A DNA stretch of 64,000 nucleotides from Histomonas meleagridis (taxonomy: Eukaryota > Parabasalia > Tritrichomonadida > Dientamoebidae): contig WSYJ01000186.1 of assembly GCA_020186115.1 (NCBI GenBank), positions 2,773,501 through 2,837,500 of the forward strand, in the 5' to 3' direction. The translations under genes and the position numbers were made by a program. Below are positions 38,850 through 56,750 of the stretch, piece after piece (the first letter of the stretch is position 1; every line of letters begins with the position of its first letter). The notes beneath the pieces are model-generated. The model made no database searches. It was not told the DNA's origin and worked only from the letters and a program-made list of their open reading frames with translations.

Positions 38850-41405
38850 TTATTGATCGTCATGTTGGGGATGCCCTAACCCATCCTCAACATTTTCGTC
38901 AAGTTCTTCTTGATTTACACCAACATCTTCTTGTAAATCATCGATTGAATCTTCTTCATTTGATGATGTTGGTTGAATGTTAATAGTAGTATCATTATTA
39001 TTTTGTAGTACGTTATACTCTTTAAAACTCTTATATAATAACAACATAGATTCTCTTAAAGCGGCTACTGAACATCTTTTTGCTACTAATCTCGCTGTTC
39101 TTTCATTATTATATAATAGTTTTAATTCATGAATTGTTTCTTCAGGAATTGCACCTAACGAGGATACTACTATAACATAAAATTCCACTTGGACGTTAAA
39201 TGTATTCCTACAATCTTCAATTAGTTGTCTATACTTGTTAATCTTCTCTATTCTTCTCAACTCTAAAGTTGATTTTCTTTCATTACTATTTGGGTCGTCA
39301 GTTAATTGGCCATATGGTGACGTTACTTCAATAATTTTAAGATTTTGATAATTACTGGAAAACCACCATACATCCGGTTTAAGATTTCTGGAGTTTCCTT
39401 CTAATCTTATATTTCTTTTACTGATTGGCCTATCATAATTAAATATAATATTATTATTCGGTTTAATTTCTTTTAATATTTCTTTAATGATTGCATTATG
39501 TCGAATAGTATATTTATTTCTTAAATTAATACAACCATTTAATCTGTGCATGAGGGAATCATTGTAATTGTTATTACATTTATGACAAATTCCATCGCCG
39601 ATTCCATTTTTATACAAAATTTCGCCTGTAGGCAAATTGTTTGTTCTTGAAACTACGGCGAAATGTATAATGCAGTCAGCAGTTGGAGCTTTATAATTCC
39701 CAATGAAGAAATTGGATAACGGAGAATTTTGTAATGTGTTAAATGTGTAACCTTTGATAGGTTTTGCTCTTAATTTTTCTCCATGTCTGTTTTTAATTAT
39801 ATTATTTAATTCTTTTAATATATTTGTTTCATCAACTATTATTTTATTAATATCATTTGAATTGTTGTCCCATATTTTAGCAGTTTCTTTATTAAAGTTC
39901 ATCTTCATACCAATTTTTAATTTGGCTAAAGATTTAATTGTTCTTGAGAATAAACAATTTGTTCTGTTTTGTGTAATTATATTATTCTCATCAACTGGAA
40001 TATTTAAATAGGGTGAATTGTAATCTTTTTCGATCTTTCTATAATCTATTTCATTAATAAAAGATTGTCTGAATAATTTCCTAGAATTTGGATCAAAGGA
40101 TTTTATAATATTTAGGAAGTTCTTAATTTGTAAAGTTTTAGCTCTTTCCCATAATTTTGGTAACCCTAAACCTCCATCTCTCCATTTAGTATAAAATAAT
40201 TCTTTAGGTAAACTATTAGTTTTACATTCCTTCATAATTAATTTCCTAATCATTGTATCAATATTATTTAATTCTTTCTCTGAACAATAACCATTTAATA
40301 ATTCGAAATCTATTTCAGGAAGAATCATTCTTTTAATCGCATCTATCTTTTGATTAAATTTTGATGGGGATTTCATAATTTTAATGATTTCATTTTTAAT
40401 CTTATTTAATCTAATATTAGCATGATCAAAACTACCTTTTCTTTTAATTACTGCAGATGAACCTAAATATTCTAAAGCTTCTAATAATGGTAAATTAGGA
40501 ATATTATCATTCTGAATTTGTAAGTTATAATTTAATGTAACTCTTCGATTATTTTCTCTAATATAACTTAAAGTTTTACATTTTTGTGGAGCCATTGACA
40601 TATCATTCTTCTTACAGAACTTTTCTACTGTATTTAACATGTTTTGCATACCTTCAGGGGTTTGAGAAATCAAGACTATATCATCAGCATAAGCTTGAAT
40701 ATTAAAATATATTACCTCATTATCATTTGTATTAATTGGAACACCATCCAGTTTATGCTTAATCTGGATTTTCTTTAATAAAGGTTCTAAGCATGAATTA
40801 AATAATAAAGGTGATAAAGGACATCCTTGTCTTACACCTCTATTTATTTTAATTTGTTCAGTTCTTTTATTTCCAACTTTGATAGTAGTATAAGAATTAT
40901 CATATAAGTCTTTAATTGCTTCTATAAATTTCGTTGGGAATCCTCTTTTCTTTAAACTCCATAAAATAGCTTTATGAGGAACAGACCCAAAAGCATTAGT
41001 AAAATCTAGTGTAGTAATAATGATTGAAGAATTATTTCTTTTAGCTTCAGAAATTAATTCATTTATAGTTGCTATATGTTCTGAAATACCATTAATACCA
41101 GCTTTAAATCCTTTTTGTACATGATTAATAAAGTTACAATTTTGATTTATAATTTGGATAATCTTTGATATCTGACACATTACAATTCTATACAATGTAT
41201 TTGATATTAATATAGGTCTCCAAGATTTAATTTCTTTTGGATCACCTTTTTTATATAATAATATTGTTTTCGAATTCTTTAAAGTTTGTGGTAATTTTCC
41301 GAATTTAATTATTTGTTCATTAATCATTTTAATAATTTTAGTAGTTGATTTAATATCTATTTTCCATATAGGATTTCCAATTCCATCTGGACCATTAGCA
41401 GCCAT
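38850..41405 (-). pseudogene. Reverse transcriptase-endonuclease part of the retrotransposon ORF
   Basis: The 851-residue frame starts at MAANGPDGIG, the typical beginning of the RT fingers. It contains TTLDFTNAFGSVPH (about 132-144), RGVRQGCPLSPLLF (189-202) and the catalytic AYADDIVLIS (238-247). A CCHC knuckle follows at 607-625 (CHKCNNNYNDSLMHRLNGC). The endonuclease has KPDVWW (676-681) and KIIEVTSPYG (catalytic E about 693), then RRIEKINKYRQLIED. All RT and nuclease key residues are present, so this half looks intact. It joins the upstream fragment by a one-base frameshift near 41440. The tail is acidic and Asn/Gln-rich. Confidence 0.9.
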
Positions 41406-41461: not shown

Positions 41462-42154
41462 CTAAAAAATCTCTATTTTCTTCTCAATCATTTTTTTTGA
41501 GTCCCATAAACTATTTTCTTTTGGTTCTTCAAAATTCGCAATTCTCTCAAATTGTATTTTATAATAATTCTCAACTTCTTCTATATTTGAATCACATTCT
41601 GGTGTAGGATCATTTAATATATACCATCTGATAGCTCTAACTGGATCTTCTCGATACATGTTTTGAGTTATATTTTTATATTTCTTTGATATAATATTCA
41701 TATTATCTTGTTGAATATTTTCTAATGTAGCTGAAATATAATTTAATTCATTTTCTCTATGTTCTGGATTATCATTAATAATGTTTCGAATATGTTCAAT
41801 GTTATTTCCTCCAATTATTTTATTTAATATATCATTATTAGTATTCTTTAAAATATTTTCTATTTCTATTTCGATACTTGAAATAGTATTTAATATAGTT
41901 TGTGTAGGTGTTTTATCTTTTAATTCTATAATCCTTTTAATATAACTAGTAATTTCTGATAAATTTCTAATTATATTGTTTTGTCTTCTAATTGTATCTT
42001 TTTCTCTATCTGTGATTTTATTCTTCTTAATAGATTTACCTAACAATTTTTCTAAAGAAATATGTAAAGTTTTTCTAATAGATAAATTCATTTTGGCTAA
42101 TCCTCCTTCAAAGATTATCCATTCTGTTTCACTTTCATTTATTGGATTAAACAT
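41462..42154 (-). pseudogene. Retrotransposon ORF, linker fragment before the RT
   Basis: This 230-residue frame (MFNPINESETEWIIFEGGLA) overlaps the zinc-finger fragment by 16 nt in another frame and ends shortly before the RT fragment. Around 42140-42155 the two frames cross at an A-rich run; at about 41440 the next crossing also lies in an A-rich run. It has no recognised domain: helical, Asn/Ile/Lys-rich, probably the linker between zinc fingers and RT. Programmed frameshifting is possible, but simple decay or homopolymer error is likelier. Confidence 0.7.
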
Positions 42155-43992
42155 TTCTTTAATATTGGAATTATTTTATTTTTCATACATTCTTTAATTG
42201 AAATAATAAGTTTTTGTCTGATATTTTTAGTAAGTTTAGGTAAATGAATCTCATTTTGTTCTTCTATTTCTACCCTATTTAACCATTTTCTACATTTTAT
42301 TAGTAAATAGTTTCTTTCTTCTATAATAATTTGTTGTTCTTTCTGAGTCATTCCTATATTTTCGACTTGTTGTTGTTCCTGATTATTATTTTGTTGTTCT
42401 TCTTGATTATTATTTAGTTGTTCTTCTCGTTGTTGTTCTAGATTATTATTTTGTTGTACTTCTTGATTATTTGATTGTTCTTGTTGAATGACTCTTTGAT
42501 CTTGATCTTGTATAATAATATTATTATTTCTATTAATTTCTCCATTAATTTGTTGATTAATAATAATATTTCTATCATTGAAGTGATTATTATTGTTATC
42601 ATCTGTTGATTGCTCTTGAACTTTAATTTCATTAACAATTTCATCAATTTGTTCTTGTAGCAGGATTCTAAATATTGTGGATTTAATCTTAATCTTTTGT
42701 TTTGGGATAATTGTTCCTTTTATTCTTGAATCACTATGCATTGAAGATGCATGTAATTTTAAGTTTCCTTCATTAGCTGTAATTGTCTTTTTACAATAAC
42801 CACATAATAAACCATATCTTTCTTTCATCAATTTGTTAATATTTGGTGTTCGGTTAACTTGATTAATCCAATATTTAATAGTCGCCCAAATCCATCCTAT
42901 TTCTGATTTTTTATCAACTATATATTTGTGTTTGGTTTTCATATGTGAAGAAAATGAACCCTGATTCATAGTAAAATAATCACAATTTGGACAAAAGCAA
43001 AAATAAAGATTCTTATGATAACTTTGATGTTGGTCTTGTAAATTAACTTGTTCCCAATAATTTTTTCTTAAACTTAAAAAGTTTAAAAATTCTAACATCG
43101 TACAATATGGAAATGTTTTAAAATGTACTTGTTTCTCATGATATTTCAAATGAGGTACACATGTAAATGCTTTTCCATCTCCTTGTGTACATACAAAAGG
43201 TCCTACACCTGGCCAACTTTTTTCGAATGCTATAATATTTAAAATTGGTATTTTAAATCTATTATTATTGCAGATGAATAAGTTCTCGTTTAAATCTTTA
43301 TTCTTCCATTTATTAATTACTAATTTAATTTCTTCTTTAGTATTCGCATTTCTAATATCATTCAATAAATTTTCTGGTGTATAATCTCCTTCATCATTAA
43401 TATTATTATTATTTTCATTATTGTGATTATTATTATTATTTAAATTGATGTTATTGATTTGATTTTGAATTTGATTTTCTTGTGGAATATTATTGTTATT
43501 GAATCCTAAGGATGTAATATTTGAGTTTAGTTGATTTTGATTATCATTGTTATTTTGATTTTGAGTTTCGTTATTATTTAGATTTATATTGATATTAATA
43601 TTTGATAAATTATAGTTTGGCATTGAAAAATTGATATCTTTTTCTACAAATTTAATTTTTGGTACTTCTATAATTTGTTCATTAACTTTAATCTGTGGAA
43701 TATTAACTGGTACAATTTCTTTATTGTAATACGGAATAGGAATATTAATATATTGTACTTGATTTTGATAGTTTGGTATTGGAATATTAATGTTTTGTAT
43801 TTGATTTTGATAATTCGGAATATTAACTAAAAAATTTTCTTGATTGTATTGAGGTATTGGTATTATATAATTTCGTAAATTTTGTTGGTAATTCGGTATG
43901 TCTATTTTGAAATCTTCTTGTTGATTATTAGGTATTGGAATTATAAAATTTTCTGTTTGTTTCTCATACTCTGGTATTTTAATAGATACCAA
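42139..43992 (-). pseudogene. Retrotransposon ORF, IP-repeat and zinc-finger fragment
   Basis: The fragment has two parts. The first holds repeats of the form NIPIPNYQNQVQYINIPIPY, alternating hydrophobic and polar residues every 14-15 positions. The second holds C2H2-type fingers: CPNCDYFTMNQGSFSSHMKT then KH, and CGYCKKTITANEGNLKLHAS then MH, plus a less regular one near FVCTQGDGKAFTCVPHLKYH. Such fingers bind the target DNA in R2-type elements. Asn/Gln-rich stretches separate them from the next fragment. The frame continues upstream of 43992 into the same repeats before shifting near 44095 at a six-T run. Confidence 0.82.
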
Positions 43993-45502: not shown

Positions 45503-46279
45503 ATTCAGGAAATAGGAAAGATTAAGTCATTCAAAGGTTTTTCAAGATCTCTGTAGACAGACGAACATATTTTTTATATAAAAAACATGTAAACATTAGA
45601 AAATATGCTCAAACACCTTGAAACCCTAAAGAGTAAAAGATTGGTTTCACTTTTCTAAAAGTTTTGCTGTGATTCAATAAAAAAAAAAAAAAAAATGATC
45701 GATAGCTTTTTTTGAATTGTTTATCAATGAAGATTAAACTTAGGTGAATGTTGAGTTTCTTCAACAGTTATTTTTTGTTTTTCATTTTGGACCAATCTAA
45801 TATATTTGTATATATGTAGATCAATATAATCATTGGTTTTCGAAAATGAGAGAAAATCAATAAATTATGCAATTGAAGTGCTGTTTCAAATGATTAAAAC
45901 ATATTCCAAATTATTCAAATGAATTCTTTTTACATTAACATCAATTCCTTCTTTATCAAAAAGTAATTTTACTATTTCTAAATCATTATTTCTAACTGCT
46001 ATATGAAGTGCTGTTTCAAATGATTAAAACATATTCCAAATTATTCAAATGAATTCTTTTTACATTAACATCAATTCCTTCTTTATCAAAAAGTAATTTT
46101 ACTATTTCACTGAGTTTGCATATTAATATTCATCTTTTACAAGAGACTTCGAAGGTAATTTATTTTCTTTTGGGTTATAAAAATTGTTGGTATCAATCAA
46201 AAATGACTATGTTATCATATTATCAATTTTGTGGGTTTAAAACAAGAAATACAACAAACAGTTTACAAATTACTTTATT
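45503..46279. other. Intergenic region between tRNA-Lys and the RhoGEF gene
   Basis: The stretch holds a poly-A run near 45680 and the duplicated ankyrin relic (45875-46108). No gene is seen on either strand; an apparent serine-rich frame on the plus strand from 46116 is the antisense of the KEE repeat. Confidence 0.55.
45875..46108 (-). repeat. Ankyrin relic with a perfect 104-bp tandem duplication
   Basis: 45875-45978 and 46005-46108 are identical over 104 bp, offset by 130 bp. Each copy encodes the EIVKLLFDKEGIDVNVKR end of an ankyrin module plus a 40-nt spacer and the next TAL. The single complete module reads TALHIAVRNNDLEIVKLLFD. ATTTGG stands 27 nt before the Thr codon. The perfect identity suggests a recent duplication. 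Confidence 0.7.
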
Positions 46280-49200
46280 TCATTTGAATGTATACCATAC
46301 AATAGCAACTAAAAGTGATACAACAGCAAATGCAATTGTAATGTTGCGCGCTGTGAGTTTGGATTTGATACCTTTGGAAATGTTTTGCGTTTTGTTGTCA
46401 ACAAAGTCCGTTATTTTCTCTGATTTGGCTTCTGTTTCTTCTTTAGTTTCTTCCTTAATTTCTTCCTTAACTTCTGTTTCTTCTTTAGCTTCTTCCTTAA
46501 TTTCTTCCTTAACTTCTGTTTCCTCTTTAGCTTCTTCCTTAATTTCTTCCTTAACTTCTGTTTCTTCTTTAGTTTCTTCCTTAATTTCTTCCTCTTTAAC
46601 TTCTGTTTCTTCTTTAGTTTCTTCCTTAATTTCTTCCTCTTTAATTTCTTCCTCTTTAACTTCTGTTTCTTCTTTAGTTTCTTCCTTAATTTCTTCCTCT
46701 TTAATTTCTTCCTCTTTAACTTCTGTTTCTTCTTTAGTTTCTTCCTTAATTTCTTCCTCTTTAACTTCTGTTTCTTCTTTAGTTTCTTCCTTAATTTCTT
46801 CCTCTTTAATTTCTTCCTCTTTAACTTCTGTTTCTTCTTTAGTTTCTTCCTTAATTTCTTCCTCTTTAACTTCTGTTTCTTCTTTAGTTTCTTCTTTAAC
46901 TTCTTCCTCTTTAACTTCTGTTTCTTCTTTAGCTTCTTCTTTAACTTCTTCTTCTTTAACTTCTGTTTCTTCTTTAACTTCCTCTTTAGTTTCTTCCTTG
47001 ACTTCTTCTTTAACTTCTGTTTCTTCTTTAGTTTCTTCTTTAACTTCTTCATCCTTAACTTCTGTTTCTTCTTTAACTTCTTCTTTAGTTTCTTCTTCTT
47101 TAGTTACTTCCTTGACTTCTTCTTTAGTTTCTTCCTTAATATCTTCTTCCTTAACTTCTGTTTCTTCTTTAACTTCTGTTTCTTCTTTAGTTTCTTCTTT
47201 AGTTTCTTCCTCTTTAACTTCTGTTTCTTCTTTAGTTTCTTCCTTGACTTCTTCTTCTTTAACTTCTGTTTCTTCCTTAACTACTGTTTCTTCTTTAACT
47301 TCTTCTTTAGTTTCTTCTTCTTTAACTTCTTCCTTAACTTCTTCTTTAGTTTCTTCTTTAACTTCTTCTTTAGTTTCTTCTTTAACTTCTTCTTTAGTTT
47401 CTTCCTTAACTTCTTCTTTAGTTTCTTCTTTAACTTCTTCTTTAGTTTCTGCTACCTTGACTTCTTCTTTAACTTCTTCTTTAGTTTCTTCTTTAACTTC
47501 TTCTTTAGTTTCTTCTTTAACTTCTTCTTTAGTTTCTTCTTTAACTTCTTCTTTAGTTTCTGCTACCTTGACTTCTTCTTTAACTTCTTCTTTAGTTTCT
47601 TCTTTAACTTCTTCTTTAGTTTCTTCTTTAACTTCTTCTTTAACTTCTTCCTTAACTACTGTTTCTTCTTTAACTTCTTCTTTAGTTTCTTCTTCTTTAA
47701 CTTCTTCTTTTCTTGTTCCTTCGTTTTCTTTTCCACGATTAACTTTATTTTCATATATTTCCACCATCGATGGTGGCTGAAGTTCATCCAACAAATAGCT
47801 GTCGGACTCATTCAGATCAGTGTCTGTTTGACTATAATCCAATGAATTAAATGACACATCGTCGACCGATTTCCTATCAGCTCTTCTTTGTTTTTGAGTT
47901 TTTCTTCTTTTTCTTTTCAATGGGTTATGTTCAGATTCGTCATCTTTATCGAGCGTTTTCCTAATAATTTTTGGCAATTCAATTACATACAAATTTGTGG
48001 GCGTAACCGCCACAATTGAAATCCCATTGAAACAGACGTCAAAATCTGACATGCTATCGGGGACGTTACCGAATTCAGAGCAATTGAATACTTCGTTCTT
48101 TGACAAATCCAACAATTGTGTAACGTTCGGTTTGCCGCCGATAATTAAAGCGAATTTGTTCAAAATGAGAACTTTATGTCGTTTTCTTTGAGGTAATTCA
48201 GGGATTTGTATAATGTTCCAACAGTTATTCTTCAAATCCATAACATGTACAGAATTTAAGCAACAATTTGAGTTCTTTCCACCGTAAACATATAATTTGT
48301 TTTTGGATGCAAATATTGAACTTTTACATCGTGCAGAAGGCGAATTTTGTGATGCAGAAATCACCGAAACTTTTGCGGTGTTTTCTTTAATAGTTTTCAA
48401 GTCGATGATAATTAACTCGTCTAAAAACTTTCGATCTTGCTTACCACCAAAAATATATAACTTTCGATGATAATATGTCGCAGCATAATCGATTCGACCA
48501 CTTATTACTTTATCCAAATTAACTTTATGGAACTTCTTATCAGCAACATGGAACCTGTACAATGAATCATAATTAAATATGAATAAATCATTAGAAGCAT
48601 TAAAGAAAAATGGGCTTTTATATTGCGAAATAGTAATTTCCGAATATTTCATTTCGCTATTTTTGATATTAATTTGAAACATGTCGATTTTCGTTTTACG
48701 TTGTGAAAGAATATAAACATCATCGGATATCGTTAAACATTTTGGTAATGTAAACCCTGGAAATGGACATTTAAGTTTAAGTGACTTCCATTCGAAGATA
48801 TATTTGTTTTCATGTGAGAGTTGTTTCCGAAGATTTTGTTGAAGTTTGGATAAATTATCAAAAAATGCGTCTTCGTCTGTTTCCGATTGGAAATTAATTA
48901 CAAATTTTGTGGTTGATTTAAGTCTTTTTTTGGGAGCATACGGTTTTTGTGTTGAATCAACAACGATGGAGAATAACCGTGGAAATTGATACTGGTATTG
49001 AAATTTTTGAATGTTGCTATCAAAAAGTGCTTTGGTTTCTTTTTTGTCAACGGTCTGAAGAAGAAGAATTAAAGTGTTCATCAGATAAAGTTTACCTGGA
49101 CGGAGCTTGTTCTTTCCGATTGTAATGTCGGTTTCGGAAATAAGTTCCCGTTGGACATCAAGAAAAACAAAGTTGTTCGAAATCGATTTCTGGATTGGAA

Positions 49201-50311
49201 AAAGAGTAGATTGTAATCTGTTAAAAGCAGTAGAAGAATCCATGTGCCTTGTGACTTCTTCGATTTTGGTCATGGCAAGTGTAAGAAGCTCATAATCTGG
49301 ATGTGAAATAGGAGTGGCTTTCAAAAGATCACGAAGGAAAAGGACATAACGAGGCATACGCTGAATGGGAGTGATCAAATACGATTGTAAGTCTCTATTG
49401 TTAACTAGACTTGATACTTCAGTCAATACTTTGGCAAATTTGGGATTCTTATTATATTGCGATACTTTATTGTCAATTGCGGTGAAATTTGATATATAGT
49501 TCTGGCTTACTCCAAAAAACTTCGAAAAGTCGAGAAATGTTGTTGCAAGTTGTGACGAATACGATGTTCCATTTTCCTTGAGTCCAGATAAAAACTGGTT
49601 GTGACATGCAAGAATTCCAGGAATATCTCGAAAGATAAGAGTTCTGTCGTCGTTGTTGAGTATTGGTGATATTTTTGGCATAAATAAATCATTTATTGTG
49701 GTTAGATCATTGATGTATGTTTGTTCTGTCGACATTATTTCTTCAACAATGTGCTGTCTTTTGTTGAGCTTCTTTTGTGTTGAATCATTGATTTCAAAAT
49801 TGATAATAAGATTTCCTTTTTTTGCTCTTTCTATGAGTTTAGTTGCATTTGTGTCATTTGGAATTTGTTCGTCATCGATGGTGATATTTGCATCATGAAC
49901 AGAAAAACCTAAAGAATCAATAATTTGCTGTTTGACATCTTGAGCAGTAAGATTTTCAAACTTAACTAAGTTAAAAGCTACATAAAATGCTGGTATTTGT
50001 AGAGTAGTTTGATTTTTCGGTGTTACTAAAATTGATTCTGTTTGTTTTTCAGATTCAAGAAGAGTTGTTAAAAAATATTCTGGTCGATCATATTTTGAAT
50101 ATCTTTTATTAACTTCAAGCTTTGGATATTCTTCAACGGGTATGATATCTGACTGTAATGCTGAAATGAAAAATGGAGTATGAATTGCTAAAATTTTTTG
50201 CGATATCTTAAATTTTTCTGTTAACTGCGATGTGTTACATCCCTTTATTTCCTCGTATTTGTAAGATATTGTTGTAGACTTGCTTTCAGCAAAACAGACG
50301 AATGTTGACAT
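46280..50311 (-). CDS. RhoGEF (DH domain) with kelch-like repeats, KEE repeat and C-terminal tail anchor
   Basis: The 1343-residue protein has several parts. Residues about 105-172 look ubiquitin-like/Ras-binding-like. A DH domain covers about 182-370 (QHIVEEIMSTEQTYINDLTT; LITPIQRMPRYVLFLRDLL), followed by a PH-like region to about 500. Kelch-like blades with YIFGGKQDR, YVYGGKNSN and ALIIGGKP lie at about 600-760, then a basic KRKRRKTQKQRR segment. About 430 residues are KEE/KEET repeats. The end is a hydrophobic NITIAFAVVSLLVAIVWYTF plus K, a classic tail anchor. It should activate a Rho GTPase on a membrane held by the C-terminus. The ATG at 50311 is clear. Confidence 0.88.
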   Translation of the reverse strand: MSTFVCFAESKSTTISYKYEEIKGCNTSQLTEKFKISQKILAIHTPFFISALQSDIIPVEEYPKLEVNKRYSKYDRPEYFLTTLLESEKQTESILVTPKNQTTLQIPAFYVAFNLVKFENLTAQDVKQQIIDSLGFSVHDANITIDDEQIPNDTNATKLIERAKKGNLIINFEINDSTQKKLNKRQHIVEEIMSTEQTYINDLTTINDLFMPKISPILNNDDRTLIFRDIPGILACHNQFLSGLKENGTSYSSQLATTFLDFSKFFGVSQNYISNFTAIDNKVSQYNKNPKFAKVLTEVSSLVNNRDLQSYLITPIQRMPRYVLFLRDLLKATPISHPDYELLTLAMTKIEEVTRHMDSSTAFNRLQSTLFPIQKSISNNFVFLDVQRELISETDITIGKNKLRPGKLYLMNTLILLLQTVDKKETKALFDSNIQKFQYQYQFPRLFSIVVDSTQKPYAPKKRLKSTTKFVINFQSETDEDAFFDNLSKLQQNLRKQLSHENKYIFEWKSLKLKCPFPGFTLPKCLTISDDVYILSQRKTKIDMFQINIKNSEMKYSEITISQYKSPFFFNASNDLFIFNYDSLYRFHVADKKFHKVNLDKVISGRIDYAATYYHRKLYIFGGKQDRKFLDELIIIDLKTIKENTAKVSVISASQNSPSARCKSSIFASKNKLYVYGGKNSNCCLNSVHVMDLKNNCWNIIQIPELPQRKRHKVLILNKFALIIGGKPNVTQLLDLSKNEVFNCSEFGNVPDSMSDFDVCFNGISIVAVTPTNLYVIELPKIIRKTLDKDDESEHNPLKRKRRKTQKQRRADRKSVDDVSFNSLDYSQTDTDLNESDSYLLDELQPPSMVEIYENKVNRGKENEGTRKEEVKEEETKEEVKEETVVKEEVKEEVKEETKEEVKEETKEEVKEEVKVAETKEEVKEETKEEVKEETKEEVKEETKEEVKEEVKVAETKEEVKEETKEEVKEETKEEVKEETKEEVKEETKEEVKEEVKEEETKEEVKEETVVKEETEVKEEEVKEETKEETEVKEEETKEETKEETEVKEETEVKEEDIKEETKEEVKEVTKEEETKEEVKEETEVKDEEVKEETKEETEVKEEVKEETKEEVKEETEVKEEEVKEEAKEETEVKEEEVKEETKEETEVKEEEIKEETKEETEVKEEEIKEEEIKEETKEETEVKEEEIKEETKEETEVKEEEIKEEEIKEETKEETEVKEEEIKEEEIKEETKEETEVKEEEIKEETKEETEVKEEIKEEAKEETEVKEEIKEEAKEETEVKEEIKEETKEETEAKSEKITDFVDNKTQNISKGIKSKLTARNITIAFAVVSLLVAIVWYTFK
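46430..47720 (-). repeat. Minisatellite coding the KEE/KEET tract
   Basis: About 1.3 kb of nearly pure purine on the coding strand is built from short units encoding EEVKEETK and ETEVKEEE. It is fully in frame. Several longer blocks (for example EEIKEETKEETEVK) are repeated almost identically, a sign of recent slippage. Confidence 0.85.
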
Positions 50312-53008: not shown

Positions 53009-56000
53009 TTAGCAATGAATACATCTCGAATTATCTTTTGCATGCAAGAAGTTATCTGTATCAGTGGAACTATCTTTGGATGCTTTTGTAAGTGATACTT
53101 CATTTTTCCTATTAAGTAATTTAACTATTTCATTATGACCTTTGTTTGTTGCGAAAAGAAGTGCTGTTTTAAATTAATCACTTAAATTCCAAATGTTTTT
53201 TAAACGCATCAAATCTTTATAACAAATTTCTTATGTCACAAGAAAACATCCTTTAAATTGGTATCAATTTTTTGCTGGAGTAAGTATTTAACAATTTGAA
53301 TATTTCCATTTGAGGCTGCAATAATTAGTGCCGTTTTATATAAGTTAAATAAACTCCAAATTTTTTTTTTGAGACATAAAATTTTCAATTTAAACTTTAA
53401 ATATTATAAAAAAACATCTTTATCATTTACATCTATTTCTTTTTGTTCAAGAAGTAATTTAACAATTTCTGTAAAATCTTTAAGCGAAGCCCAAATAAGA
53501 GCTGTTCTTTATAAATTAAATTAACTCCAAATTTGATTATTATACATTAAATAATTAAAATTAACATTAATTCAAATAAATATATATCTTTAGCATTAAT
53601 ATCAATCCCTTCTTGAATAAGAAGTAATTTAACGATATCAATTGATTCATTCCAAGAAGCTTTAATAAGAATTGTTTGATATATTATGAATAAATTCCAA
53701 ATAATATTCACAAATATAAAATATTTTATAATAACCTTAAATTAAATAATTTAATATTTTTAGCATTTAAATCAATTCCCTTTTGCCTAAGAAGTAATTT
53801 AACTATTTCAATGTGATTGTTATCAAATGCAAACATTAGTGCTGTTTCAAATATCTTGAACAAAATTTAAAATTTAATTTAAAATAAAAAATTTTAAGAA
53901 AAAATTTTTAATATAATAAAACAATACCTCGAGCATTAATCGCAATTTTTTCATGTTTCAAAAGTAGTTGAACAATCTCATAATATCCTTCTTTTGATGC
54001 AATTATTAGAGCTGTATTAAATAATTAAAATAAAATTTATATATTATATAAAAATATTATAACAAGAAAAGATATATCAATTACAAGAAATATATATCTC
54101 TTGCGTTTATATCAATTTTTTCTTTCCTAAGAAATAATTTAATAATTTCTATTTGATTATTTATAGTAGCGACAATTAATGATGTTTTAAAATTTTTAAG
54201 CAAGTTTTAAATATTATTTACAAAAAGAAAATATTTTAATGATAATTTGAAACAAATTAAAAAACATCTTTTTCATTTATATCGATTCCTTTTTGTTCCA
54301 ATAATAATTTAGTGATTTCAACATGACCATTTTTTGATGCAATCATTAATGCTGTTTCAAAGAATTTAAAGAAACCCCTAATATTTTATTGATACAAAAA
54401 ATTAATAGCAAAAATACAAAAACAAATAAATAAACATCTTTGGCATTGATCTCAATTGCATTTTGTTCCAAAAGTAATTTAACAATTTTTATGTAATTAA
54501 ATTTAGATGCAACCATAAGTGATGACACATATAATATTATAAAATTACAAACATTATTTTAAAATATTAAATTATTTAAATAAATTTCAAATAAAACAAA
54601 TAAATATCTTTTACATTAACATCTGTTTCTTCTTGTTCAAGAAGTAATTTAACAATTTCTATGTGACCATTTTCAGATGCTAAAATAAGTGCTGTCTTAA
54701 ATAATTTAAAGTATTACCAAATGTTATTATGAAATATAAAATTAGTGAAATTAATTTTGAATCAAACAAAAATACATTTTGAGCATTGATATCAATTCCT
54801 TTTTGTTCAAGAAGTAATTTAACACAATTAACATGACCATTTTTAGAAGCACACATAAGTGCTGTATCAAATATATTTGAAATATTAAATATTTTCTAAA
54901 AATGATTTTAAATTTAATATTAAAACAGTTTTAATATTAATATCAATATCTTTAACTTCAAGAAATAATTTAACTATTTCGAAATTTCCTTTTTCTACTG
55001 CATAAATTAGAGCAGTATTATATATATTATATAAATACCAAATATTGTTTTAATGAACGAAAAATTTAAAACAAATTTTATATTAAATAATGAATCATCT
55101 CTCTCATTAATATCAATTTCTTTTTGCTCAAGAAGATATTTTACAATTTCAATATATCCATTTTCAGATGCCCTCATTAATGCTATATTAAATAATTTAA
55201 TTATATTCCGAATATTATATTGAAACCCAAATTTATTACAAAAAACATTTTATATAATAAACTAATTTTTTTAATATTAGAATCAATTTCTTTTAATTCA
55301 TAAAATAACTTAATTATTTCTATATAACCATTTTTAGCTGCATGTATAATTGCTCTACGAAAAAGTCAAAATAATTTTCAACTAAATAAAACAAATATTG
55401 GAAATTAAAAACAATCACTTAAATTATTGATATCAAAACATTTTTGCTCAAGAAGAAGTTTAACTATATCAGCAAAACCATTATCATAAGCAATCATAAT
55501 TGCTTTAATTTCTTAAATAAATAAACTCCTAATATTATATAAAAATATCAAAACAACGAAAAAAATTTAAACTCAAAACAAAGATTTTTAATATCAATTT
55601 CATTTATTTTTTCTTCAAGTATAAATTTTACAAGTTCATAATTTCCAGAAAAAGAAGCCGAAATTAAAATATTTTTTGGTATTTGATTACTTACATTCAG
55701 AAAATATTTAAATAAAAAAATATTTCCGACTTTTGCTGTTTCATTTAATATTGGATTTAATTCGATTTTATCTTCTAAAAATGATAAAACTTCATAATTA
55801 TTATATAATATACATAATTTACCTAAATTAGTTACATCTTTAGGAATACAAATTTTGTTTTCATATAAATAACGAAAAATATCATTTCGATGAAATTCAA
55901 TTGCTGATTCATATGCTCCAGTAAAATATTTATTATTTTTCTCACATAAATGAAAAATTTCTAAGTTTCCACCTGCAATTGCATATTTACATGTATTTGT

Positions 56001-56750
56001 TAATTTAGAATAGTTTAACATCAAGAATTTAAAACATTTAACTGATCCGAAAAATGCTGCATAATCGATTAATGTAACATTTTCTTTATTAATAAATGAA
56101 CATATTTCATAAAGCGATGGTTCGATTGTTTGGTTAAAATCAAAATTTGTTTGTGATGATATTTCTTGAAGTTTTTCTATTTCATCATTTCGAATTATTT
56201 TAGCAATTTCATTGGTATTACGTCCTTCTTTAATTAATTGTTTATGAAGTTCCCAATCATTATTTGAAAGTTTTTTAATATTTTTAGAGAATTCTTTTGT
56301 AAATTTACCAAAAATTCGAAAATCATTAATTTCTTCTTTTGTGTTGTAATGTATAAAATACAAAGATTTCTTTCTCTTTACAAAATTCTTATCAATCATT
56401 TTTTGATTAATCATGTTTTCTAAGATATAATTCGATTCTTGAGAATTCAAACTAAGCATATAAAATGTAAAAACATTAGTTATTTTGTGTTTAACTTCTT
56501 TTTCTTTTGCTTCAATTAATTGTAGAAATTGAAGATAGATATTAATGTTTTTATGTTGCGAAATATACGATGAATATATTTGTCGAATGATGATTATATT
56601 AAAAGAAAAAAGGGAATCATTATATAAACCCAATAATTCATCAACTGTTTTGTTAATATTATCTTCATTTATGTTCTGGATTATATTTTGAATATTTTTT
56701 AGATATTGCATATATAATTTTTCATTGATTTTCTCTGGTTCATACTCCAT
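53009..56750 (-). CDS. Ankyrin-repeat protein gene interrupted at every repeat by about 80-nt spacers
   Basis: The first 390 codons (55579-56750) are an intact DUF3447-type N-terminal region, paralogous to the gene at 29-31.7 kb (DWELHKQLIKEGRNTNEIAK against NWKTHKELISKGRNPNPIAE). After KINEIDIKN the gene becomes 15 modules of about 30 codons (e.g. TALMIASKNGHVEITKLLLE, then QKGIDINEKD), none with an internal stop. They are separated by AT-rich spacers, mostly exactly 80 nt. The last module runs to a stop at 53009. Because 80 is not a multiple of three, modules rotate through all frames. Spacers lack consistent GT-AG ends. Either they are removed in an unusual way, or this is a strikingly conserved pseudogene. 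Confidence 0.7.
53100..55560 (-). repeat. 170-bp tandem array of ankyrin module plus spacer
   Basis: The KLLLEQ-coding anchor (GAAGTAATTT-like on the plus strand) falls at 53281, 53451, 53621, 53791, 53961, 54131, 54301, 54471, 54641 and 54811, exactly 170 bp apart. More copies lie at 54962, 55132 and 55302. Two units are shorter by about 20 bp. Spacer sequences are strongly diverged while their length is not. Confidence 0.88.

Follow-up and report, generated by a model that had tools for sequence, protein, structure and literature searches.

Seventeen-nucleotide inserts between single codons in ankyrin-repeat genes of Histomonas meleagridis as candidate fixed-length mini-introns

Translational bypassing, known in phage T4 gene 60 and in the byps of Magnusiomyces, concerns gaps that lie between codons and carry no splice sites, and the tRNA re-pairs there at a landing codon resembling the take-off codon. 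The 17-nt inserts which we describe here from ankyrin genes of Histomonas meleagridis resemble such gaps in both respects; matched take-off and landing codons, however, are not seen with them. In designed ankyrin proteins (DARPins) the variable D-x-x-G-x-T hairpin residues form the binding surface, comparable to the loops of lamprey VLR and the CDR loops of antibodies. In contrast to all of these, the variable residues of the genes described here appear as separate single-codon exons.

According to excerpts of PMC9505925, the spliceosomal introns of Stentor coeruleus are 15-16 nt long and mostly GU-AG. The AT-rich example sequence given there, the near-constant length and the U-rich branch region, where position 10-11 usually holds the branch A, are points of likeness, whereas the 17-nt inserts lack the GU start and the AG end and are set apart from each other by single codons. 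Trichomonas vaginalis, of the same protist group, has introns of 23 nt and up with GT/AG borders and a 3′ site to which ACTAA is fused; 63 of them are active, they occur in phases 0, 1, and 2, and three ankyrin genes carry such introns (PMC12316389, in the parts available). H. meleagridis likewise possesses at least one intron of the form GTATGT...ACTAACACACAG, whereas both signals are missing from the 17-nt inserts, of which there are thousands. Its published annotation, obtained with AUGUSTUS trained on the transcriptome, contains 573 introns and at most one per gene (PMC8529796, in part). The nonconventional introns of euglenids have irregular borders and a stable secondary structure bringing the ends together, as far as the consulted sections of PMC6221363 describe them. 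The two kinds share borders that are not canonical and a mode of removal not yet explained; the inserts, however, are only 17 nt long, constant in length and in phase 0 in the aligned classes. We found no report of such 17-nt inserts in the PMC literature, which does not cover subscription papers and preprints.

The interrupted ankyrin gene

The window analyzed is a 64,000-nt stretch of the H. meleagridis genome (contig WSYJ01000186.1, positions 2,773,501 to 2,837,500), and all features for which we give window coordinates are on its minus strand. The gene under study extends over 53009..56750, from an ATG at 56750 to a stop codon at 53011-53009, and comprises a DUF3447 5′ exon followed by an interrupted ankyrin array. 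The initial annotation had placed its bounds at 53009..55620 and overlooked the uninterrupted 5′ exon (55593..56750), which encodes DUF3447 together with the first ankyrin core. This exon is found as an ORF of 400 aa (55548-56750) with Pfam matches to PF11929 (DUF3447; 2.7e-9, 37.3 bits, cut-off 26.9) and Ank_2 (1.9e-7), and the N-terminal position of DUF3447 places the gene in the DUF3447-ankyrin family.

With a profile of the 27-residue core (consensus TALHIASRNGNIEIVKLLLEQEGIDIN) 16 ankyrin cores were located between 55673 and 53167. All are free of stops over their 81 nt, and 13 of the 15 core-to-core steps bring a change of frame, which bears out the stop-free modules described initially, except that 15 had been counted. 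Ten of the 15 intervals measure 170 nt; the period reported before is therefore real, although only eight of these intervals follow one another directly (54865 to 53505), the other two standing further toward the start of the array. The remaining intervals are 167, 150, 151, 171, and 167 nt long. A single non-coding spacer of 80 nt had been assumed in each repeat, but the typical gap between the 27-aa cores is 89 nt, corresponding to seven codons and four inserts of 17 nt, and in most of the spacers single sense codons set the four inserts apart. The resulting length rule, 3m+17k, holds for 13 of the 15 intervals, the exceptions being 151 and 171 nt.

Ten of the hairpin spacers consist of exactly seven codons and 4 × 17 nt as judged by unit alignment and length: 55187..55275 (codons IKKNWGN), 55017..55105 (ERDKRGN), 54696..54784 (AQNKYGK), 54526..54614 (VKDENVV), 54356..54444 (AKDCFGE), 54186..54274 (EKDKSKK), 54016..54104 (ARDDNKN), 53846..53934 (ARGKFKE), 53676..53764 (AKNKYGQ), and 53506..53594 (AKDNNGR). 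The last may serve as an example, its inserts being positioned by unit alignment at 53569..53585 (site 1, after GAT), 53549..53565 (site 2, after the single codon AAT at 53566-53568), 53529..53545 (site 3, after the single codon AAT at 53546-53548), and 53509..53525 (site 4, between GGA at 53526-53528 and AGA at 53506-53508). Three further spacers agree in length. Those at 55507..55592 (86 nt, six codons and 4 × 17) and 55357..55425 (69 nt, six codons and 3 × 17) do so by length only, the inner parse of the former not being resolved; the third, 53168..53253 (86 nt), again fits six codons and 4 × 17 and received a Viterbi parse with E, D, G, and K codons. The two misfits are 54866..54935, whose 70 nt are off the 3m+17k rule, possibly through a lesion or an assembly indel, and 53335..53424, whose 90 nt correspond to seven codons, 4 × 17 nt and one base and include a run of ten A. 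Because of these two hairpins the window copy may have small lesions or assembly errors.

A Viterbi parse which allows sense codons and 17-nt inserts only, with insert profiles derived from other loci and the window excluded from training, leads from the ATG at 56750 to the stop at 53009 in one frame of 946 codons and 53 inserts. The D-x-x-G-x pattern is regained in most units; the parse is unclean in the 151- and 171-nt units and takes a different path in the unit 55105-55017. In a profile-free control on the same gene with one fixed insert length between 8 and 30 nt, 17 ranked fifth of 23 and was outscored by 22, 25, 28, and 19, which use fewer inserts. The length of 17 nt therefore rests on the aligned units of many loci, which prove it, and not on the window gene alone.

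Only with the inserts taken out exactly does a sensible protein result, and the joined array would yield peptides such as ...AKDNNGRTALIWASLK.... Nine joined window repeats score 304.8 bits with Ank_2 (PF12796, cut-off 27.3) and are thus recognized as ankyrin repeats, compared with 279.5 bits when the hairpins are shuffled, 211.2 when they are omitted and 195.4 when the register is moved by +3. The minor profiles Ank_KRIT1 and ANK_LRRK2 gave slightly higher scores with the shuffled than with the real hairpins. A search of the protein database with the joined product returned 5,043 relatives; among the 120 listed none exceeds 48% identity, few are named and there is no parabasalid among the named ones.

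By reading, the window also contains a long reverse-transcriptase-like ORF (38850-41405) with neighboring ORFs at 41462-43623, probably a retroelement, and a large ORF (46280-50311) whose body is RhoGEF/kelch-like and whose long tail is of low complexity (EVKEE).

Register, length, and abundance of the inserts

For comparison we read 20 regions picked from ankyrin matches and six from pattern matches, a chosen and not a random sample. In the arrangement which we call type II, single codons lie within the hairpin. The 170-nt unit reads GCT AAA GAT [17] AAT [17] GAT [17] GGA [17] NNN ACA GCA and without its inserts becomes NAKD-N-D-G-x-TAL, the canonical ankyrin hairpin. Units of 153 nt lack the first insert only and units of 102 nt lack all four, so that inserts are present or absent at four sites with the number of codons unchanged. 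In the column-aligned units the inserts are in phase 0 and confined to hairpin codons 3-7, with 0 to 4 sites occupied; no mechanism explains either property.

No stop occurs among the 1,001 hairpin codons of 143 type II units in the loci read, and Gly is found at hairpin position 6 in 121 of these units and in all eight uninterrupted repeats. In 62 distinct 170-nt units the single codons (0 stops in 248) specify 19 amino acids and have 30% GC. With the register moved one base to the left 112 of the 248 triplets become stops; the registers -4 and +3 are likewise stop-free, however, and absence of stops alone is not diagnostic. Registers -3 to -17, inside the inserts, have a GC content of 3-12%. 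The diversity of amino acids and this contrast in GC content carry more weight, as do 2,000 shuffles of the third bases in 124 distinct type II units: the avoidance of stops was reached by none of the 2,000 shuffles at slot 7, with P=0.001 at slot 5 and with P=0.04 at slot 4, while slot 6 gives no information and its coding nature rests solely on the conservation of Gly. At slots 4, 5, and 7 the TA- codons are TAT or TAC only and the TG- codons TGG or TGT only. Since third bases avoid stops and Gly occupies its ankyrin position, the single codons between the inserts appear to be translated. Of the cores in the loci read, 9 of 304 contain a stop.

Three other ways of dividing the type II spacers were considered. 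A single 80-nt intron per repeat is rejected, as 92 distinct spacers, those of the window among them, offer no pair of columns with GT and AG; the best GT column (74%) falls inside one of the inserts, and the best one for AG (53%) belongs to the coding AAAGAT. Canonical trichomonad intron signals are absent, as had been noted from the outset. Introns of 37 nt which skip a codon are rejected by the stop-avoiding third bases at slots 5 and 7 and weakly at slot 4, and insert borders moved by one base are excluded by the usage of TA- and TG- codons at slots 4, 5, and 7.

In a second class, type I, a 20-nt unit of insert plus one codon, usually [ATATGTTTTAATAATTT]NNN, is stacked in variable number behind a first insert ATTCATTTGAATAATTT; in locus L013 23 inserts lie within one hairpin and stretch the interval to 547 nt. 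The single codons of 63 fully parsed units in the loci read include no stop (0/304). In 60 distinct units third-base shuffling predicts 43.4 stops (minimum of 2,000 shuffles: 34) and none is observed in 296 codons, while among the genome sites listed one TGA occurs in 100 type I codons. The 296 codons are mainly GAA (82), GGA (50), TAT (36), AGA (25), TGG (21), GTA (16), AAA (15), GAT (13), ATA (12), and TTT (8); type I loops are thus enriched in E, G, Y, R, and W and use nearly one codon per amino acid. Ser, Cys, Pro, His, and Met are missing from these 296 codons (60 distinct units, e.g., of L013, L010, and L023), and a single Pro codon was seen among the type I genome sites listed. A type I relic of two near-identical units (codons VKR[17]G[17]E TAL) is present in the window at 45874-46120, and no gene was seen around it. 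A 190-nt type II unit at position 2936 of L034, in which an insert plus codon is seemingly duplicated, is a possible step between type II and type I.

Locus L004 is mixed, combining ordinary 102-nt repeats with inserts scattered across the hairpin sites, for example KD[17]NE[17]G[17]WTALH and ENG[17]NTPLH. Its longest stop-free stretch measures 451 residues as it stands and 691 once eight 17-nt stretches are taken out. Of these inserts the first six are in phase 0. The remaining two compute as phase 1, since the last hairpin has one base more than 17-nt inserts allow, and the frame is lost over the final residues.

Core distances in the loci read are quantized at 102, 119, 130, 147/150/153, 167/170/173, 187/190, and 207 nt. 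Repeats of 32-35 codons with k inserts, i.e., 96/99/102/105 + 17k, cover 219 of the 247 distances up to 260 nt in these chosen loci. When units of 10 to 30 nt were tested instead, 13 nt came second with 140 of the 247, while 16 nt covered 85 and 18 nt 87. Among the 28 misfits 12 measure 171 nt, one base over, and three (227, 227, and 250) are long type I loops beyond the tested codon range. The 171-nt units occur in L027, L035, L026, and the window (53424-53335), several of them at homopolymers, and represent either tolerated 18-nt inserts or assembly indels. With length and phase left free in 49 single units, 17 is the commonest length, yet it accounts for only 25 of 137 inserts and the phases are mixed.

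The array had been treated as one gene, but the same design recurs across the genome. The type II pattern AATAATATTTGGAAATTATTTAAATTATTT, which spans one complete insert, the Gly codon and the final ten bases of a further insert, has 3,477 genome sites with up to two mismatches (reversed control 0), and a type I insert-pair pattern has 2,249 sites, overlapping in tandem (control 74). From these two counts the H. meleagridis genome would hold at least several thousand 17-nt inserts. In the window, insert-pair matches other than those of the array and of the relic at 46 kb lie between ORFs of at least 150 codons, or antisense to them. Of 150 DUF3447 matches scored, 104 occupy open frames with a length of 370-510 codons (median 402), as expected if an array beyond the first exon breaks the frame, and the insert-pattern matches listed include seven more places with a DUF3447 match 0.3-2 kb upstream on the same strand. 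Two other families were surveyed by their best-scoring members, so that broken ones could escape. For BspA/LRR_5 (best 150 of 3,722 candidates) the matches listed are in frames of at least 154 codons, one with a TGA; for Ras/Rab (best 150 of 666 candidates) none listed has stops and two start at profile position 26.

Between type II units of the same locus (248 pairs, which are not independent) divergence is 0.138 per base in the inserts and 0.168, 0.100, and 0.170 at the three codon positions of the core. For the single codons the corresponding values are 0.73/0.39/0.40 (slot 5), 0.47/0.41/0.50 (slot 7), 0.45/0.14/0.43 (slot 4) and 0.06/0.30/0.23 (Gly slot). Even in the 178 pairs with 0-1 differences among the 34 bases of the two flanking inserts, the slot-5 codon has diverged at 0.296 per base, two or three of its bases being exchanged in 46 of them. 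Between units of the window array the core positions differ at 0.36/0.21/0.40, a mild bias only, and the inserts at 0.38 per site.

Insert signals and possible explanations

The inserts are AT-rich. Among 84 inserts from those arrays that have diverged most, R-T-T-T-N-T-T-T-A-W-A-W-T-A-T-T-T is the prevailing pattern; 36 start with AT, 25 start with GT, 53 end in TTT and none has GT..AG. Of the 464 type II inserts of the 124 distinct units, one has the GT..AG ends of U2-type introns and three the AT..AC ends of U12-type introns; the trichomonad branch site ACTAAC and GTATGT are absent from all, AATAAT is present in 165 and a GT start in 40. The organism itself has a spliceosome, as U2 snRNA (80.5 and 79.3 bits, gathering 46), U6 snRNA (43.7 bits, just under gathering 44), a canonical GTATGT...ACTAACACACAG intron in a DHHC-type gene (L030) and a canonical ACTAACACACAG 3′ end ahead of a kinase exon (L031) were found, both genes being named by reading the translation. 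The canonical intron motif has three exact genome sites compared with two in the reversed control. The inserts would be intron-like in their working, yet correspond to no intron type by any sequence signal tested, and since they have neither GT-AG nor a branch site, no known machinery could be assigned to them.

We consider it probable that the inserts are fixed-length mini-introns removed from the RNA and that the window gene is a functional member of the DUF3447-ankyrin family. The 17-nt inserts, situated in the β-hairpin between codons, would be excised from the transcript as non-canonical mini-introns, and the runs of one codon and 17 nt in the pre-mRNA would be joined codon by codon into the canonical 34-residue ankyrin repeat. 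The machinery would measure length and read the weak R-T-T-T...A-T-T-T pattern instead of GT-AG. The length and register of the inserts, the selection on the single codons, the occupied or empty state of the four sites at a constant number of codons and the genome-wide family are observed; from the coding constraint we infer the removal itself and its taking place at the RNA level. Against this reading count the core distances outside the length rule, about one in ten, the two misfit intervals of the window, the loss of frame in L004, the stops in nine cores and in one type I codon, and the profile-free control, in which the window gene by itself does not favor 17 nt. Our confidence in removal rests on the aligned units and is hence unmoved by this control. 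The initial suggestion of an unusual mechanism by which the spacers are removed or skipped finds support in this respect, while its unit has to be corrected, as each spacer holds several 17-nt inserts.

Removal could be the work of the ordinary spliceosome acting on very short introns with relaxed sites (5′ RT, as in the type I start ATATGT, which is one base off GTATGT, a degenerate AATAAT branch site and a 3′ end TT), a special case of mini-intron removal and not exclusive of it, which we regard as possible though short of probable. The canonical introns and snRNAs of the organism speak for it, as do the AATAAT and GT-start inserts counted above; in Stentor 15-16 nt are enough, as stated in the available part of PMC9505925. 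It has to contend with the near-absence of GT..AG and the lack of ACTAAC and GTATGT in the type II inserts, and long runs of 3-nt exons would leave exon-side contacts no room. Splicing would not require all inserts of the aligned classes to be in phase 0, as they are. A ribosome that skips 17 nt after each codon, with the inserts kept in the mRNA, predicts exactly this position between codons and needs no splice signals. Such programmed bypassing is kept alive mainly because strict phase 0 at four sites is unexplained by splicing; we nevertheless think it unlikely, given that TTT precedes resumption in 53 of the 84 diverged inserts while the preceding codons vary widely, so that take-off and landing do not match, and that up to 23 successive hops would be needed.

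The initial annotation had also raised the alternative of a pseudogene array. Tandem duplication and gene conversion could maintain uniformity in decaying arrays, and homogenized arrays do exist (L027 and L032), some units do not fit the length rule, and core codon positions 1 and 3 are equally diverged in the 248 pairs. Decay is disfavored by the complete absence of stops from the single codons of both types in the loci read and by the third bases which avoid them. In addition, the window inserts have diverged strongly between units although spacer length still fits 13 of 15 intervals, and conversion leaves unexplained why most single codons out-vary the surrounding inserts; we judge this origin very unlikely. 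The combination of variable codons with conserved flanking inserts might alternatively point to silent DNA cassettes that donate by recombination to an expressed uninterrupted ankyrin gene, and uninterrupted ankyrin genes are indeed present in the genome. The transfer of a codon would, however, drag the inserts along, and the window array directly follows a DUF3447 exon which is itself intact, a layout with similar counterparts at the seven other places listed. With DUF3447 upstream these arrays look like genes and not like donors, and a role as cassettes seems extremely unlikely to us.

Loop variability and meaning

Constant non-coding flanks around a variable codon are the opposite of what neutral decay would give and fit the diversification of a binding loop. 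The variable slots correspond to the variable positions of designed ankyrin proteins. The single codons would form the target-binding loop of the protein, so that loop residues could be exchanged or gained singly. We tentatively propose that the 17-nt inserts, which lack GT-AG, are removed in their thousands by an RNA excision system dedicated to this task and measuring length, and that the loops are encoded with one codon per exon; slippage of units and recombination between inserts of nearly identical sequence might then add, delete or swap single residues with the frame intact. If this is true, the arrays would constitute a codon-by-codon generator of diversity with an outcome comparable to that of CDR3 or VLR.

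If the inserts are spliced, they would form a eukaryotic intron class of one fixed length without GT-AG, with one-codon exons in runs of more than twenty, and would challenge the requirements of the spliceosome for intron recognition. The several thousand inserts estimated from two patterns would then stand against 573 annotated introns (PMC8529796, in part). Such genes would escape gene finders, and a large protein family of this poultry parasite is therefore probably truncated in the databases. Taken together, the 17-nt inserts between single codons point to a previously undescribed kind of intron.
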